Source: Hahella sp. CCB-MM4 | Lineage (GTDB): Bacteria > Pseudomonadota > Gammaproteobacteria > Pseudomonadales > Oleiphilaceae | Length of the DNA stretch: 64,000 nt | Reading direction: 5' to 3' | Assembly: GCF_002260525.1 (NCBI RefSeq) | Contig: NZ_MRYI01000003.1 | Coordinates: forward strand, 372,001 to 436,000 | In this document: one piece after another, positions 31,450 to 41,264 of the stretch | Numbering within the stretch: position 1 is the stretch's first letter | Layout of the letters: each line of letters begins with the position of its first letter | Translations under genes and position numbers: made by a program | Notes under the pieces: model-generated | Told to the model about the DNA's origin: nothing | Databases searched by the model: none | Seen by the model: only the letters and a program-made list of their open reading frames with translations

Positions 31450-31640
31450 TTATGTGATGTCCTATCATTCGGTTGCGGTATCAAGCTCCTTTCCGGAAAG
31501 CCTATCATAGTTTTTAAGCGGCTCAGTCAGTGACTGGCAATATCTGACATATTTCATCGCTCGGCACATACGTCGACTTGTCAGATAATTCTCCAATAGG
31601 GTATTCTTCCCCGGCTTCTCAGAAGCGAGACATTAACCAC
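31450..31640. other. Divergent spacer upstream of the FMN riboswitch
   Basis: This spacer should contain the ribB promoter. No gene or clear promoter pair was recognised. Confidence 0.4.
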
Positions 31641-31782
31641 TTATTCTCAGGGCAGGGTGAAATTCCCTACCGGCGGTATGCCCCAACGGGCGAGCCCGCG
31701 AGCGCCTGTCGATATGACAGGGTCAGCAGATCCGGTGAAAAGCCGGAGCCGACGGTCACAGTCCGGATGGGAGAGGATAAGG
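31641..31782 (+). ncRNA. FMN riboswitch (RFN element)
   Basis: The conserved RFN segments are present in order: TTCTCAGGGCAGGGTGAAAT, then CCCTACCGGCGGTATG, an AGCCCGCGAGCG stem, GGTCAGCAGATCCGGTGAAA, AGCCGGAGCCGACGGTCACA and GTCCGGATGGGAGAGGA. It lies in the ribB leader, about 105 bp before the ATG. FMN binding is expected to turn ribB off. The expression platform is not obvious; no strong terminator lies between 31782 and 31889, so control may be at translation initiation. Confidence 0.97.
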
Positions 31783-36154: not shown

Positions 36155-36581
36155 GATCTCTCCTGGGGGTCTTTTTCATCAATTCTTAAATTGCGTCTTT
36201 CAATTACAGCATCAAGGTCTCAAGCTGTGTCTTTTATCCACACTTAAAACTATTCCGGTTGTGTCTTTCATCCACACTTAAAACTATTCCGGTTGTGTCT
36301 TTCATCCACAACGGGCAACTGTAAAACAGTTACAAATTTTATCAAACCGATAATTTTCGCCGAATGGCTCATAGAAAAAAAACCACAAACCGTTATGATT
36401 GCCATTTTGGAAGTCAGGCTGTACTTTTTGGCATTGTTTGCTGGGCTTTATTGAGAGAGCAAAACCGAGGCAACCAATGGAGGGTAAGAAGCCGATAGCC
36501 TGACTTGAAGTACAAATGAGGCCCATAAATTCAATGCCAGGAAGTCCAAATAATCATAAATCGGATCGGAAAATTAAACGC
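36155..36581. other. Divergent intergenic region
   Basis: About 430 bp between yajQ and the response regulator gene. It holds the 34-bp tandem repeat at 36226-36310. No promoter could be assigned with confidence and no gene is seen. Confidence 0.5.
36226..36310. repeat. Tandem repeat, 34-bp period, 2.5 units
   Basis: Units begin TGTGTCTTTTATCCACACTT (36226-36259) and TGTGTCTTTCATCCACACTT (36260-36293); a 17-base partial third unit follows (36294-36310). The units differ by a single base. Each contains TGTG...CACA, a small inverted repeat, so the array could also be a set of protein sites. Confidence 0.93.
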
Positions 36582-37568
36582 ATGCCGAACTTAGACCTTT
36601 CCATTCTCGTTGTGGATGACGCCAAATTCAGTAGCGCCATTATTACAAAAACCCTGCGAAATTCCGGCTACCGCGATGTGCGGATCGCCAACAATGCCGC
36701 TTCTGCAATCACCATGTTGGAGCAAAGGCCCGTCAGTGTATTGATCGCCGACTGGTTGATGCCGGAAATGGACGGTCTGGAACTGGCAGAAAGGGTTCGC
36801 CAGATTGACGAAGCCACCAACCATTTCACGTATATCATTCTGCTGACAGCCAAAGAAGGCGTTGAAGCTCTTTCCGAAGCCTTCGATCGCGGTGTGGATG
36901 ATTTTATTAATAAGTCCGAGATGAACAAACAGTTGCTGCCCCGGGTATTTGCAGCAGACCGTATTTCGGACATGCAGAACACCCTGTTGCTTGCCAATCA
37001 ATTGTTGATGGATAACAACCAAGAACTGCAGGAACGTAATGTACTGGATCTCTCTACCGGCCTGGGGAATCAGAGGCTGGCTCGGGAGCGTCTGGCTGAT
37101 ATGCTGCGACAGACGGAATCCCGCGGCGGTGCGGCAAGCTACGTTCTGATCGGCATTCGTAACTGGCAGTCTATCCGCAAGCAATATAATCCTGCCATTG
37201 TGGAAGAGGTTGCGAACGGGGTGGCACGCAGGTTACGTCACCTCACACGGCCACTGGACACCGTATGCCGAATTTCAGAGAACCAATTGGCGATCATCAG
37301 TCAGTTCAGTTCCCTCGATCAGTGCACCAGCACTTGTTTCCGACGCATTCATGATGGCATCAACCACAAGGCCTTTAAGACCACAGCCGGATTTATATCC
37401 GTACAGGCCGGCACCAGCATTATCGGCATAGACGGCAGTACAGCGATGCCCAATGCCCAACAAGTGGAAAGGGTGGCCCTGAAACAGCTGCAATATGCCT
37501 TCGACACAGGGACCATCTCCATCAGCCACTGGCCTGAAGTGACTCTGGAAACAGAAGAATCCGAATAA
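36582..37568 (+). CDS. Response regulator with degenerate GGDEF output domain
   Basis: About 328 residues. The receiver domain (about 5-125) has the acidic pair in ILVVDDAKF, the phospho-acceptor Asp in VLIADWLMPEMDG, Thr in ILLTAKEG, and an Asn-Lys-Ser in place of the usual KP (FINKSEM). After a coiled-coil linker (NTLLLANQLLMDNNQELQERN) comes a GGDEF-type fold starting LDLSTGLGNQRLARERL. The signature RxGGDEFA is replaced by RISENQLA, so cyclase activity is not expected. An alternative ATG at 36516 would add 22 residues. It is followed by a terminator and stands alone. Confidence 0.88.
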   Translation: MPNLDLSILVVDDAKFSSAIITKTLRNSGYRDVRIANNAASAITMLEQRPVSVLIADWLMPEMDGLELAERVRQIDEATNHFTYIILLTAKEGVEALSEAFDRGVDDFINKSEMNKQLLPRVFAADRISDMQNTLLLANQLLMDNNQELQERNVLDLSTGLGNQRLARERLADMLRQTESRGGAASYVLIGIRNWQSIRKQYNPAIVEEVANGVARRLRHLTRPLDTVCRISENQLAIISQFSSLDQCTSTCFRRIHDGINHKAFKTTAGFISVQAGTSIIGIDGSTAMPNAQQVERVALKQLQYAFDTGTISISHWPEVTLETEESE

Positions 37569-37577
37569 GCCCTTCCC

Positions 37578-37612
37578 GGCCCCGAGGACATCATGCTTCG
37601 GGGCCTTTCTTC
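37578..37612 (+). terminator. Terminator after the response regulator gene
   Basis: GGCCCCGA (37578-37585) and TCGGGGCC (37598-37605), followed by TTTCTTCTTT. The stem is perfect over 8 bp. Confidence 0.88.
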
Positions 37613-37731
37613 TTTCTATTTCTTAGCCTTCTTGGCCTATAGCAGCTTCTTCGTTTATCTCAGTAATTCTCAACTTATCAGAGATTATCGGCACATATCA
37701 GCAAATACCCGCACACAGAGTTTCCTGATCG

Positions 37732-37771
37732 TTACAAAACACCACAACAGCTTACCCAAACACAACTGAAT
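37732..37771 (+). promoter_or_regulatory. Conserved upstream boxes of element A
   Basis: TTACAAAA (37732-37739), ACAACAGCTTAC (37744-37755) and ACAACTGAAT (37762-37771). The last two recur upstream of element B with the same 6-base gap and the same 58-base distance to the conserved transcript sequence, which suggests a shared promoter or activator site. The bases between are not conserved. Confidence 0.6.
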
Positions 37772-37801
37772 CTCCCGTCGGACTTTCCTAAACTTCTCAT
37801 T

Positions 37802-37867
37802 GTGGATTTGAGTAGTATCCCCACTTACAAGCAAGGGGGATCTTAGTAGTAACCCCTTGCTTCTTTT
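37802..37867 (+). ncRNA. Candidate small RNA, element A
   Basis: Begins with GTGG plus the 17-base block ATTTGAGTAGTATCCCC, shared exactly with element B. It then has a perfect 10-bp hairpin AAGCAAGGGG (37829-37838) and CCCCTTGCTT (37853-37862), followed by CTTTT. The loop repeats the motif AGTAGTAaCCCC. ATCCCC (37817-37822) can also pair with GGGGAT (37836-37841), giving an alternative fold that excludes the terminator-like stem. A longer transcript could reach the hairpin at 37927-37949. No open frame with a ribosome-binding site is present. Confidence 0.5.
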
Positions 37868-37926
37868 AAGTGGCTATTCACAGTTTCCTTGCCTTTTGTT
37901 TCATTTCCATTCTCTTTACAGAGTTC

Positions 37927-37962
37927 GGGGTGGCGTAGTTTGCTGCCCCATTTGTTTATTTA
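37927..37962 (+). terminator. Second hairpin downstream of element A
   Basis: GGGGTGGCG (37927-37935), TAGTT loop, TGCTGCCCC (37941-37949) with several G-U pairs, then ATTTGTTTATTT. It corresponds in position to the terminator after element B. Confidence 0.55.
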
Positions 37963-38000
37963 TCTCCAAAAACTTCCACTGGGATCCCGCTACCCCACTA

Positions 38001-38040
38001 TTTGTTGGTCAGTACCGCAACTTGTTGGTCAGTACCGCAA
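38001..38040. repeat. Tandem repeat, 20-bp period, 2 units
   Basis: TTTGTTGGTCAGTACCGCAA (38001-38020) and CTTGTTGGTCAGTACCGCAA (38021-38040). It covers the end of the small membrane-protein gene on the minus strand. Because 20 is not a multiple of 3, the second pass is read in another frame and supplies the last residues LRY and the stop codon. Confidence 0.93.
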
Positions 38041-38299
38041 CTGTGGTGAATGTAAACAGACTTCCCGGCACCAGAAAATAGGCGATCAGGTCGGAAACAG
38101 CCCAATTTCCATCCACAATTCTGCCTCTTCTGTATAAGCTAAGAGTCACCCCGACCAGGATGAATATCAGGATACTGATCCAGCCCATCATGGAATGCTC
38201 GACGATCCCGTATTTCATCGGTACAGGCAGCATAAAACTCAGCATCCAAAGCGCTGCAACGCAGCTGGCGCTGTCATAGGTTCCAAGTATTTTTTTCAT
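38009..38299 (-). CDS. Small membrane protein of unknown function
   Basis: A 96-residue protein from ATG 38299 with three hydrophobic stretches: ASCVAALWMLSFMLPVPM, GWISILIFILVGVTLSLY and DLIAYFLVPGSLFTFTTVAVL. A basic loop RRGR lies between the last two, giving a likely three-span inner-membrane protein. I do not recognise the family. It lies between the two copies of the small-RNA-like element, in the opposite direction to them. Its 3' end is formed by a 20-bp tandem duplication that changed the reading frame. The ribosome-binding site is poor. Confidence 0.55.
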   Translation of the reverse strand: MKKILGTYDSASCVAALWMLSFMLPVPMKYGIVEHSMMGWISILIFILVGVTLSLYRRGRIVDGNWAVSDLIAYFLVPGSLFTFTTVAVLTNKLRY

Positions 38300-38418
38300 A
38301 AACCCCAAAATAGCCAGTTAATTTTCCTTCAAGCAGCTTGTTCCAGTGATTAGCGCCAGAAAGAACTCAATGTGCAACATACATATCTGATACATGTTAG
38401 TCCAACTACCTGATAACT

Positions 38419-38459
38419 TTACAAAAGACTAACAACAGCTTACGTAGAAACAACTGAAT
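38419..38459 (+). promoter_or_regulatory. Conserved upstream boxes of element B
   Basis: TTACAAAA (38419-38426), ACAACAGCTTAC (38432-38443) and ACAACTGAAT (38450-38459). Spacing of the last two boxes to the downstream conserved block is identical to element A. An AT-rich TATTAATATTTAAAT follows and may include the -10 region. Confidence 0.6.
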
Positions 38460-38489
38460 ATCAGGGATTCGTCTATTAATATTTAAATC

Positions 38490-38551
38490 GTGGATTTGAG
38501 TAGTATCCCCCATTTAGAGCAGGGGGTTGTGTAGTACCCCTGCTGCTTTTT
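38490..38551 (+). ncRNA. Candidate small RNA, element B
   Basis: Starts with the same 21-base block as element A. The hairpin AGCAGGGG (38518-38525) and CCCCTGCT (38537-38544) replaces the element A stem with compensating changes that keep pairing, and is followed by GCTTTTT. The loop again ends in GTAGTA before CCCC. CCCCC (38507-38511) could instead pair with GGGGG (38522-38526). A longer product would end at the terminator at 38600-38627. Confidence 0.5.
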
Positions 38552-38599
38552 GGGCCCTCACTGAGGTTGGTTGTTATCTTGTCCCACAAGGTTTATTTA

Positions 38600-38627
38600 G
38601 GGCGACCCGTTTGGGTTGCCCTTTTTT
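38600..38627 (+). terminator. Strong plus-strand terminator after element B
   Basis: GGGCGACCC (38600-38608), GTTT loop, GGGTTGCCC (38613-38621), then TTTTTT. No plus-strand protein gene precedes it; the only plausible transcript is element B. Confidence 0.9.
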
Positions 38628-38634
38628 ATTGCCT

Positions 38635-38661
38635 AAAAAAAGACCCCACAGAAGTGAGGTC
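38635..38661 (-). terminator. Terminator of the Fe-ADH/ALDH/GS operon
   Basis: On the minus strand GACCTCAC-TTCT-GTGGGGTC (38661-38642) is followed by seven T residues. It lies 24 bp after the alcohol dehydrogenase stop codon. Confidence 0.85.
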
Positions 38662-38685
38662 AAAACTCTACCGAGGGTTCGGTTA

Positions 38686-39858
38686 TCAAATAATGCCGTT
38701 TACCGCATTCCTGAATACCTGGGTTAAATCTTCGGCATTGACCGGAGTAGGATTTCCGCCCGCGGAAGGATCTCCAGCAGCGAGCTCACCAACGGCCTCC
38801 GCCTGATCGGCCGCAACATCGATATCACGAAGCGTATGCGGAATTCCCAGCTGCCTGCGGAATTCCAGCACCCACGCCAAGACAGATTCAAAAGACGTGT
38901 CCTGCAGACCGATCGCCTGAGCAACAGGAGTCATGCGATGCTCGATGGCGCTCTGATTATGCTTCATCACATAGGGCAACAGGATCGCATTGGTAAGACC
39001 ATGGTGAGTGTTATACATGGCACCAACCGCATGGGCGATGGCATGCACACCTCCCAAGCCTTTCTGGAACGAGATCGCTCCCATACTGGCAGCCGCTAAC
39101 ATGTGAGTTCTGGCAACCAGATCAGCACCATCTTCATAAGCTACCGGCAGAGCTTCCGCAATCAGACGCATCCCCTGCAAGGCAATGCCTTCGGCAATCG
39201 GGTGAAATCCGGGTGCACAATAGGCTTCAAAACAGTGAATAAAAGCATCCAGACCTGTTGCAGCCGTAATGGGTGGAGGTAGTGCAACTGTCACTTCCGG
39301 GTCCAGAATGACCGCTACCGGTAGCATTTTGGGATGGAACACGATGACCTTGCGATGCTCTTGCTCGTTGGAAATTACCGAAGCACGCCCGACTTCAGAG
39401 CCTGTTCCCGCCGTCGTCGGTACGGCAATCACCGGGGCAATACCGTTAACGTCCGCCCGCTTCCAGTAGTCGCCGATATCCTCAAAATCCCATATCGGAC
39501 GGGTCTGCCCGGACATAAACGCAATGGCTTTGCCCACATCCAAAGCACTACCGCCGCCAAATGCAATAACACTGTCATGCTGGCCCGTACGATAGACTTC
39601 CACCCCCGCGCTGACAGAGCTTTCTACCGGGTTACCGGCAACATCGGCGAACAGGTCAACACCAAGCCCGGCATTTTTCAGCAATGCCAGAGTTTCAGTG
39701 ATCATGGGAAGATCCTTAAGTCCCTTATCTGTCACCAGCAAAGGCGACTTATATCCCAGCTCCTCACATAAGGACGGCAGCTCTTGCAACCGCCCCGGAC
39801 CCACCAGCATTCGATTGGGAATTCCCCAGTTGGCAGTAATGGTTTGTGCTGAACTCAT
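38686..39858 (-). CDS. Iron-containing alcohol dehydrogenase
   Basis: A 390-residue group III (Fe) alcohol dehydrogenase. NAD-binding GGGSALDVGKAIAF and TTAGTGSE are present. All metal ligands are in place: Asp and His in TGLDAFIHCFEAY, His in GGVHAIAHAVGAM and His in NTHHGLTNAILLP. It is the last gene of a minus-strand operon after the aldehyde dehydrogenase (2-bp gap) and the GS-like ligase. In that setting I infer oxidation of a gamma-glutamylated amino alcohol to the aldehyde. A role as a general alcohol dehydrogenase cannot be excluded. The ATG has GGAG seven bases upstream. Confidence 0.93.
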   Translation of the reverse strand: MSSAQTITANWGIPNRMLVGPGRLQELPSLCEELGYKSPLLVTDKGLKDLPMITETLALLKNAGLGVDLFADVAGNPVESSVSAGVEVYRTGQHDSVIAFGGGSALDVGKAIAFMSGQTRPIWDFEDIGDYWKRADVNGIAPVIAVPTTAGTGSEVGRASVISNEQEHRKVIVFHPKMLPVAVILDPEVTVALPPPITAATGLDAFIHCFEAYCAPGFHPIAEGIALQGMRLIAEALPVAYEDGADLVARTHMLAAASMGAISFQKGLGGVHAIAHAVGAMYNTHHGLTNAILLPYVMKHNQSAIEHRMTPVAQAIGLQDTSFESVLAWVLEFRRQLGIPHTLRDIDVAADQAEAVGELAAGDPSAGGNPTPVNAEDLTQVFRNAVNGII

Positions 39859-39860
39859 AA

Positions 39861-41264
39861 TCAGGCTCCAGAAGGCAATCTAAGGTGGAAACTTTTAGGC
39901 TGGGTCAGTGCGTCGTACCCCAATTCAGAGAGAGACGCGCCACGCCCAGTATTCTTGACCCCTGTCCATACCAACGATGGGTCCAGATAGTCACATCGAT
40001 TCATGAAAAAGGTTCCGGTATTTACCTGGGCGCCAAGACTTTCTGCCGCCTCAAGATCACGGGTCCAGATGGAGGCGGACAGGCCAAATTCGCAGTCGTT
40101 CATCAGAAGAATTGCCTCTTCATCCGAGCTGACAGGCATAACGCCAACCACCGGACCAAAACTTTCTTCCTTCATCACGCGCATATCATGGTTCACATTG
40201 ACCAGGATTTGCGGAGCCATATAAGGGCTGCCCTCTTCATCAGCGGGAAAATCAGCAGGGTTAATGAGGGTCTTGGCACCGGCCGCAACGGCTTCTTCAA
40301 TCTGCCCACGGACAAAGGCAGCGGCACTTGCTTTTACCAGTGGCCCCAGTGACGTTGTCGGCTCCAGGGGGTTACCCAGCATCAGTTTTTTGGTTTCTTC
40401 GACCAATGCCTCGACAAATTCATCGTACACACTTTCGTGGACATAAATACGCTCTATGGAACAGCAGGACTGCCCGGTATTAAAGAATGCCCCATCTGCC
40501 AGATTGACTGCGGCATCGGCGATGTCCGCATCGGCGCGGACATACGCAGGATCCTTGCCTCCCAGTTCCAGACCGGTACCGGCAAAGTTGCCGCTTTCTG
40601 CAACAGCCTGCTGAATACTGAGACCTCCACCCACGGACCCGGTAAAGTTCACGAAACGGATTTCAGGAGACTTCAACAGATCGGATGTGGTCTGGTGACT
40701 CATGTGCAGAACTTGGAACAAACCTTCCGGCAGCCCGGCCTTTTCAAGCACACTTTGGATTCGCTCACCACACAATAAAGTTTGTTGCGCATGTTTCAGA
40801 ATTACCGCGTTACCGGCCACGAGTGCTGGCCACACCGAATTCACTGCGGTCATGTAAGGGAAATTCCAGGGAGCAATTACCATCACCACCCCAACCGGAT
40901 CACGACGTATATAGCGCTTGAATCCTTCCTTCTCCGGCATCTCGATCGGTGCCAATACCCTGGGGGCAATTTCCAGCATATAGCGGGCACGCTCACTGAA
41001 GCCGCGCACCTCTCCGGCTCCCTGGGATACCGGCCGCCCCATTTGCCAGGCCAGCTCGGTAATCAGGTCCTGGGTTTCCTCCGCCAGGATATCGATGGCC
41101 GCATTCAGAATACGGATACGCTCATCCAGTGACACCTGTTGCCAGGCTTTTTGCGCTGTTGCGGCTTTAGCGACACTTTCCCGGGCTTCCTCCGCCGAAA
41201 CATAAGGTCTTTCGGCGAACACTGATCCGTCAACCGGACTGATTATTCGTGCCATTTCACTCAT
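39861..41264 (-). CDS. NAD(P)-dependent aldehyde dehydrogenase
   Basis: A 467-residue aldehyde dehydrogenase superfamily enzyme. VIAPWNFPYMTAVNSVWPALVAGNAVILKHA binds the cofactor, the general base Glu is in LELGGKDPAYV and the catalytic Cys in NTGQSCCSIERIYV. The local His-Ala in VILKHAQQT replaces the common KPS/KPA, as in succinate-semialdehyde-like members. Operon position suggests oxidation of a gamma-glutamyl aminoaldehyde to the acid. GGAG precedes ATG 41264. Confidence 0.94.
   Translation of the reverse strand: MSEMARIISPVDGSVFAERPYVSAEEARESVAKAATAQKAWQQVSLDERIRILNAAIDILAEETQDLITELAWQMGRPVSQGAGEVRGFSERARYMLEIAPRVLAPIEMPEKEGFKRYIRRDPVGVVMVIAPWNFPYMTAVNSVWPALVAGNAVILKHAQQTLLCGERIQSVLEKAGLPEGLFQVLHMSHQTTSDLLKSPEIRFVNFTGSVGGGLSIQQAVAESGNFAGTGLELGGKDPAYVRADADIADAAVNLADGAFFNTGQSCCSIERIYVHESVYDEFVEALVEETKKLMLGNPLEPTTSLGPLVKASAAAFVRGQIEEAVAAGAKTLINPADFPADEEGSPYMAPQILVNVNHDMRVMKEESFGPVVGVMPVSSDEEAILLMNDCEFGLSASIWTRDLEAAESLGAQVNTGTFFMNRCDYLDPSLVWTGVKNTGRGASLSELGYDALTQPKSFHLRLPSGA

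Follow-up and report, generated by a model that had tools for sequence, protein, structure and literature searches.

Twin elements of Hahella sp. CCB-MM4 belong to a predicted small RNA family with repeated loop motifs

Features of the locus

The window, the whole stretch of 64,000 nucleotides of Hahella sp. CCB-MM4 DNA that was analysed, carries two elements on the plus strand, with predicted RNA starts near 37802 and 38490. The two copies and the gene upstream of them, designated F0, comprise the following features.

36516..37568, plus strand: F0, a protein with a response regulator receiver domain (PF00072, 1.8e-21) and a degenerate GGDEF domain (PF00990, 8.7e-12), the stable upstream neighbour of the element family-wide
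37731..37736, 37744..37755 and 37762..37771, plus strand: activator-like boxes GTTACA, ACAACAGCTTAC and ACAACTGAAT upstream of copy 1, identified from the sequence, with related boxes at many other copies
37789..37794, plus strand: -10-like hexamer TAAACT of copy 1, chosen by eye from its position before GTGG and absent from the consensus scan
37802..37955, plus strand: RNA of copy 1, from the conserved GTGG to behind the terminator, both ends predicted (covariance model R1, 60.2 bits, E 1.2e-12)
37811..37817, plus strand: loop motif 1 of copy 1, AGTAGTA, in the 5' loop; AGYAGTA is found here in 106/109 copies and GYNGT in 109/109, partly by selection
37821..37826 with 37868..37873, plus strand: helix P2 of copy 1, CCACTT with AAGTGG, from the minimum free energy (MFE) fold; P2 covaries in Marinobacter-type relatives
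37829..37862, plus strand: hairpin P3 of copy 1, identified from the sequence, with loop motif 2, AGTAGTA, at 37845-37851
37927..37949, plus strand: terminator hairpin of copy 1 with an imperfect T tail, from the terminator scan
38418..38423, 38432..38443 and 38450..38459, plus strand: boxes TTTACA, ACAACAGCTTAC and ACAACTGAAT upstream of copy 2, identified from the sequence
38477..38482, plus strand: -10-like hexamer TAATAT of copy 2, chosen by eye from its position and absent from the consensus scan
38490..38628, plus strand: RNA of copy 2, both ends predicted (R1, 75.5 bits, E 1.0e-16)
38499..38505, plus strand: loop motif 1 of copy 2, AGTAGTA, from the motif count over 109 copies
38509..38512 with 38551..38554, plus strand: helix P2 of copy 2, CCCA with TGGG, from the MFE fold
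38518..38544, plus strand: hairpin P3 of copy 2 with loop motif GTAGTA at 38531-38536, from the sequence, the fold and the motif count
38599..38622, plus strand: strong intrinsic terminator of copy 2, from the terminator scan

A sequence-only reading of this DNA had described twin candidate small RNAs with shared upstream boxes about 690 bp apart, and its layout was recovered. The arrangement ACAACAGCTTAC-N6-ACAACTGAAT lies at 37744-37771 and 38432-38459, and the identical 21-base block GTGGATTTGAGTAGTATCCCC begins at 37802 and 38490, 58 bases from the start of the first box in both copies. The stems, which had been said to differ and yet remain paired, are AAGCAAGGGG/CCCCTTGCTT in copy 1 (37829-37838/37853-37862) and AGCAGGGG/CCCCTGCT in copy 2 (38518-38525/38537-38544), and covariation was found among homologues. 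Two GTAGTA-n-CCCC motifs were located in each element, and the second terminator claimed for each copy is present as a hairpin with a T-rich tail at 37927-37949 and at 38599-38622. Terminator-like sites number 10 in 36500-39900, compared with 3.2 in shuffles. The predicted RNAs of both copies fold better than 200 of 200 shuffles, with z scores of -4.69 for copy 1 (computed on 37802-37951) and -3.26 for copy 2. With up to three mismatches allowed, the 21-mer occurs at 2 places in the 6.66 Mb genome, which are the two elements, and the reversed control at none. A sigma-70 consensus scan, for which 3.7 sites were expected, gave a single site in the region, at 37163, and none at either element.

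About 20 bases (TTGTTGGTCAGTACCGCAAC) are directly doubled at 38002-38042, between the two RNA genes, and the same interval holds a small minus-strand ORF (38009-38308, 99 aa) which is hydrophobic by eye and gave no Pfam match. An opposite-strand terminator-like hairpin at 38642-38661, right behind copy 2, fits the Fe-ADH gene at 38686-39858 on the minus strand. The GGDEF site of F0 reads SENQL and is degenerate by eye.

Distribution of the family and its genomic setting

In agreement with the statement that no known RNA family was recognised, Rfam 15 gave no match at the gathering score for either element. Across the window a single match reached that score, an FMN riboswitch at 31639-31782 (plus strand, 118.9 bits); relaxing the search of 37500-38760 to E<=5 brought up four matches, all below threshold and located around the end of copy 2, and the loci of 12 relatives gave no match at the gathering score. 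A literature search of titles and abstract openings, with subscription papers and preprints outside its range, yielded no description of such an RNA, and the listed matches to short motif words were unrelated by title.

Copy 1 as a BLAST query hit 16 of 38 genomes, the own genome included. A 15-base pattern with one mismatch found 28 places in 19 of the 38 genomes and its reversed control 14, so that the pattern by itself proves little and the case rests on a covariance model. This model, R1, was built from 21 distinct copies in which the remainder of the element was also recognisable; L023 and L024 were excluded, and two places with one mismatch (G001, G005) lay outside the set. A search of related genomes with a covariance model built from both copies had been proposed as a check on the sequence-only reading; R1 matches 109 of the 121 genomes of the window's family, in 15 of 16 genera. 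The matches of the two window copies are by construction, since both stood in the alignment behind R1. In a sample of the order, 12 of 293 genomes were matched, all of the same family, and at least one same-family genome was among the 281 without a match; in a sample of the class the own genome was the one match among 274 genomes, and the strict filters of both searches may miss weak matches. An exact-pattern scan of named genomes retrieved 72 stretches, named as Marinobacter, Hahella, Oleiphilus, Mangrovitalea, Halospina, Halovibrio, Vreelandella utahensis or metagenome-assembled genomes, the last assigned to Hahellaceae, Oleiphilaceae or unspecified Gammaproteobacteria. Several genomes contain additional RNA copies, in tandem or unlinked, and some species have two per genome. 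In G068 and G132 (L086 5949-6416, L087 5921-6395) a second RNA gene with a single module stands behind a three-module RNA.

The twin elements are very likely a real, new and family-wide structured small RNA whose transcription is predicted, and the well-supported family, found in most sampled Marinobacter and Hahella genomes, is apparently undescribed. The two window copies would be paralogues encoding a small RNA of about 140-155 nt that is specific to this lineage. Each would have upstream control sequences and an intrinsic terminator of its own, with transcription and both RNA ends predicted.

Of 40 loci fetched as stretches of 10-16 kb, 34 contain F0 and six (L075, L078, L079, L081, L084 and L093) do not. 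F0 was the next called same-strand ORF upstream for 36 of 48 copies; in L085 and L095 it was missed by the ORF caller. In Marinobacter-type loci the gap between F0 and the RNA is often about 70-90 nt. Matches to F0 were found in 42 of 145 genomes of the order, five of them within the family. Ten plus-strand loci outside the family were readable behind F0, minus-strand loci not being counted. Six of them (L205, L209, L211, L221, L224, L226) have another frame within tens of bases behind F0, which we tentatively take to be panE, going by the Pseudomonas gene order; L220 and L225 carry other sequence, and L218 and L219 end early at an in-gene stop. These few cases suggest that the RNA either originated in the space behind F0 or moved there in the ancestor of the family.

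Positions -68 to -31 are highly conserved upstream of Marinobacter-type copies, reading ACA....GTAACA......CAC.........ACAGAC at the 90% level over 69 copies. The repeats in this region follow an approximately helical spacing, and the last one occupies the place expected for a -35 box, which suggests that the RNA gene depends on a putative activator bound at phased upstream sites. With up to one mismatch, the promoter pattern found the RNA gene in 12 of 12 genomes and 2 other places; with 3 places for the control, these two are at chance level.

Conserved structure and loop motifs

The analysed set consisted of 109 copies after identical or short entries had been dropped. The cut-off L134, a 17.5-bit reverse match of L074, same-contig duplicates and inner or partial module matches (L087 6045, L086 6058, L180 7457) were left out. 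Copies with the 3' element present within three edits (71/109) were classed as Marinobacter-type, and the remaining 38 include some from Marinobacter. Alignment A3 contains 68 Marinobacter-type copies, 67 of them distinct, with L103, L113 and L112 left out for their inserts. Selection accounts for part of the conservation of the 5' block, because an exact pattern supplied the 72 stretches and copies found with the 15-base pattern supplied R1.

The structure of A3 has four helices, with 94.0% of cells paired. P0 joins the 5' end to a segment behind the hairpin, P2 pairs the leader CCCCAU with AUGGGG, P3 is the strong hairpin, and P4 (AACGAA/UUCGUU) encloses the UUCAGGC element. Both-sided changes were found at 16 of 31 pairs, against 4.3 +/- 1.6 in shuffles that ignore sequence relatedness, and all six slid controls of the structure scored lower on every measure. 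P0 exceeded shuffles (P<=0.05) in 50 of 71 Marinobacter-type copies and 16 of 38 others, and in neither window copy. Tested as a free duplex, P2 gave a weaker result, 37 of 109 copies at P<=0.1 (mean -8.4 versus -6.6 kcal/mol). In the predicted folds of the window copies the leader CCCC pairs behind the hairpin, cleanly in copy 1 (CCACTT/AAGTGG) and as CCCA/TGGG in copy 2. The proposal that this leader competes for the GGGG of the stem is less supported, as relatives instead keep P2 behind the hairpin together with the long-range P0. A 5' hairpin, P1 (GGA/UCC), was considered and set aside; it is possible, with both-sided change at one of three pairs in two sequences, and P0 and P2 could account for it.

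The first hairpin and its T-run had been read as a terminator giving a product of about 65 nt. The T-run is present in both window copies, but across the family four or more T follow P3 in only 26 of 109 copies, the window copies among them, and P3 was rejected as a general first terminator. The 65-nt product is correspondingly less supported, with partial termination possible in the window copies. Terminators turned up in 91 of 109 copies under a simple scan, their ends lying at a median of 142 nt; from these two counts the second hairpin is taken as the general RNA end and P3 as internal. Of the original proposal of twin small RNA genes, the conserved structure, the lack of an Rfam family and the covariation of homologues held, and the 65-nt terminator and the CCCC/GGGG competition are less supported.

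The motif GYWGT occurs 2.33 times per element within the first 110 nt, compared with 0.39 +/- 0.06 in shuffled sequence, or about six-fold. It is found in the P3 loop of 103 of 109 copies and missing from that of six; 74 of 109 have GYAGT there, the A of GYAGU often being T. This position lies outside the exact pattern that fetched the 72 loci. Both window copies carry GYWGU in the 5' loop and in the P3 loop. The conserved loops read approximately YYNRGYWGU, and the loop is kept while the flanking stems vary. In L103, L112, L113 and L146 the P3 region is enlarged by further hairpins with GYAGT-type motifs; L086 and L087 carry repeats of the complete P2-P3 module, with about six motif copies, the new ones being GYAGT or close to it. 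In the single MFE folds of these multiplied relatives some motif copies are not unpaired. TCAKGC is found in the 3' part of 87 of 109 copies and is absent from both window copies and from the RNAs with three modules in L086 and L087. The latter indicate that the 3' element is dispensable where loops are multiplied and, taken with the window copies, that the loops are the common denominator.

Proposed role and alternative explanations

The explanation we favour, at about an even chance of being right, is a small RNA that presents several loops and titrates an RNA-binding partner, following the logic of CsrB with another motif. The sequence (A)GYWGU(A) would be displayed in unpaired form twice, once close to the 5' end and once in the loop that caps the strong hairpin. 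A transcript with the predicted ends, its amount set by a presumed activator bound at the phased upstream sites, would capture a loop-recognising partner multivalently, and this partner would most likely be an RNA-binding protein. The explanation is built on the family and its lineage, the Marinobacter-type helices, the conservation of the loops and the extra motif-bearing hairpins of some relatives. By analogy with Csr sponges, a loop that multiplies while its stems diverge suggests a loop-binding partner. The same loop pattern would be expected of an RNA that acts through kissing loops or short-seed pairing, and TCAKGC looks more like a pairing seed. Among single mechanisms, loop-based protein titration is the best at roughly even chances, with short-seed pairing close behind. 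Somewhat less probable, and tentative, is a second Csr-like circuit in which a family-wide sponge holds an RNA-binding regulator on repeated YYNRGYWGU loops, usually with two and up to about six motifs per RNA and one or two genes per genome, born behind a response-regulator gene in the Hahella/Marinobacter ancestor. The occurrence of the family in 109 of 121 genomes suggests that the RNA probably serves some need of these common marine bacteria. Should its loops bind protein, it would be a bait for a new post-transcriptional regulator, and the species in which the motif has multiplied naturally would provide built-in dose experiments.

Several known systems share parts of this design. The Qrr, PrrF and AbcR pairs are near-identical small RNA genes lying close together with their own control regions and terminators, as the neighbouring genes here do; the present elements differ in having no Rfam match and in their conserved parts. 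ANTAR-binding tandem hairpins are repeated hairpins with a hexaloop carrying A1 and G4. The repeated hairpins here likewise keep their loop, but it measures 9-11 nt or more and, by eye, lacks the A1-G4 hexaloop. CrcZ and CrcY are sequestering RNAs with a repeated short motif, as is proposed here, and the motif of CrcZ is AAnAAnAA rather than GYWGU.

A classical base-pairing small RNA of the Hfq type, with the loops and the U-rich UUUUUCAGGCACUUUCGUU of Marinobacter-type copies as short mRNA seeds, is possible and is rated somewhat below the favoured reading. TTCAGGC is invariant in 68 of 68 A3 copies, of a type itself sorted by that element within three edits, and the frequencies of TCAKGC (87/109) and of the scanned terminator (91/109) suit such an RNA, as do searches of 10 genomes in which the complement of the 3' element gave 42 non-self matches against 16 for the reversed control and that of the 5' block 9 against 1. 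These counts neither make nor break the pairing explanation, since reversed patterns differ in codon content. The matches do not lie at shared genes: blastn comparison of 20 of the 42 loci and of 9 of the 9 gave no cross match, and among them no shared long antisense site was seen. TCAKGC, moreover, is absent from both window copies. That the element is instead a cis-acting part of the F0 3' UTR, affecting transcript end or stability, with copies elsewhere as by-products, is improbable. The position of F0 directly upstream of 36 of 48 copies, and the short gap in Marinobacter-type loci, would fit, but 6 of 40 fetched loci have no F0, a terminator-like hairpin at 37578-37605 separates F0 from copy 1, and copy 2 has upstream boxes of its own. 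Least probable of all is a mobile element or DNA repeat that has no function as RNA; although some species carry two copies per genome, most loci have one copy beside F0, the helices covary, and GTGGATTYRAGYAGTATCC has no exact match in viral_contigs.

It is likewise very unlikely that the RNA is the Csr/Rsm sponge of this lineage. Like CsrB, RsmZ and RsmY (RF00018, RF00166, RF00195), the family has several hairpins, one repeated loop motif in variable number and sometimes more than one gene per genome, and its upstream boxes are activator-like. Unlike them, it carries GYWGU(A) in place of ANGGA and has no Rfam match, RF00195 having been covered in the searches of the window and the 12 loci. 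Its conserved loops are without GGA; repeated ANGGA was not found in them, and GGA sits in stems by eye. Searches of 23 genomes with RF00166 and RF00018 did not list the twin-element locus and gave weak matches elsewhere in 15 and 7 genomes, respectively, none over the cut-off in either. Control genomes at E<=0.1 gave 6 of 14 and 3 of 14. As weak RF00166 matches are this common by chance, the ground against a Csr sponge is the GGA count and not the model. Eight of the loci matched elsewhere were read. Three are unremarkable, with 2 (L186, minus strand), 4 (L188) and 10 (L196) GGA per 450 bases, and five (L187, L189, L190, L193, L194) hold 12-30 GGA in 450 bases and are candidates for RsmZ/CsrB-like RNAs. 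The own genome is represented by L190 (G000:C1:276332-276449) with 12 GGA, the highest count of 30 is that of L193 (G015), and L187 and L189 each show two near-identical units in tandem.
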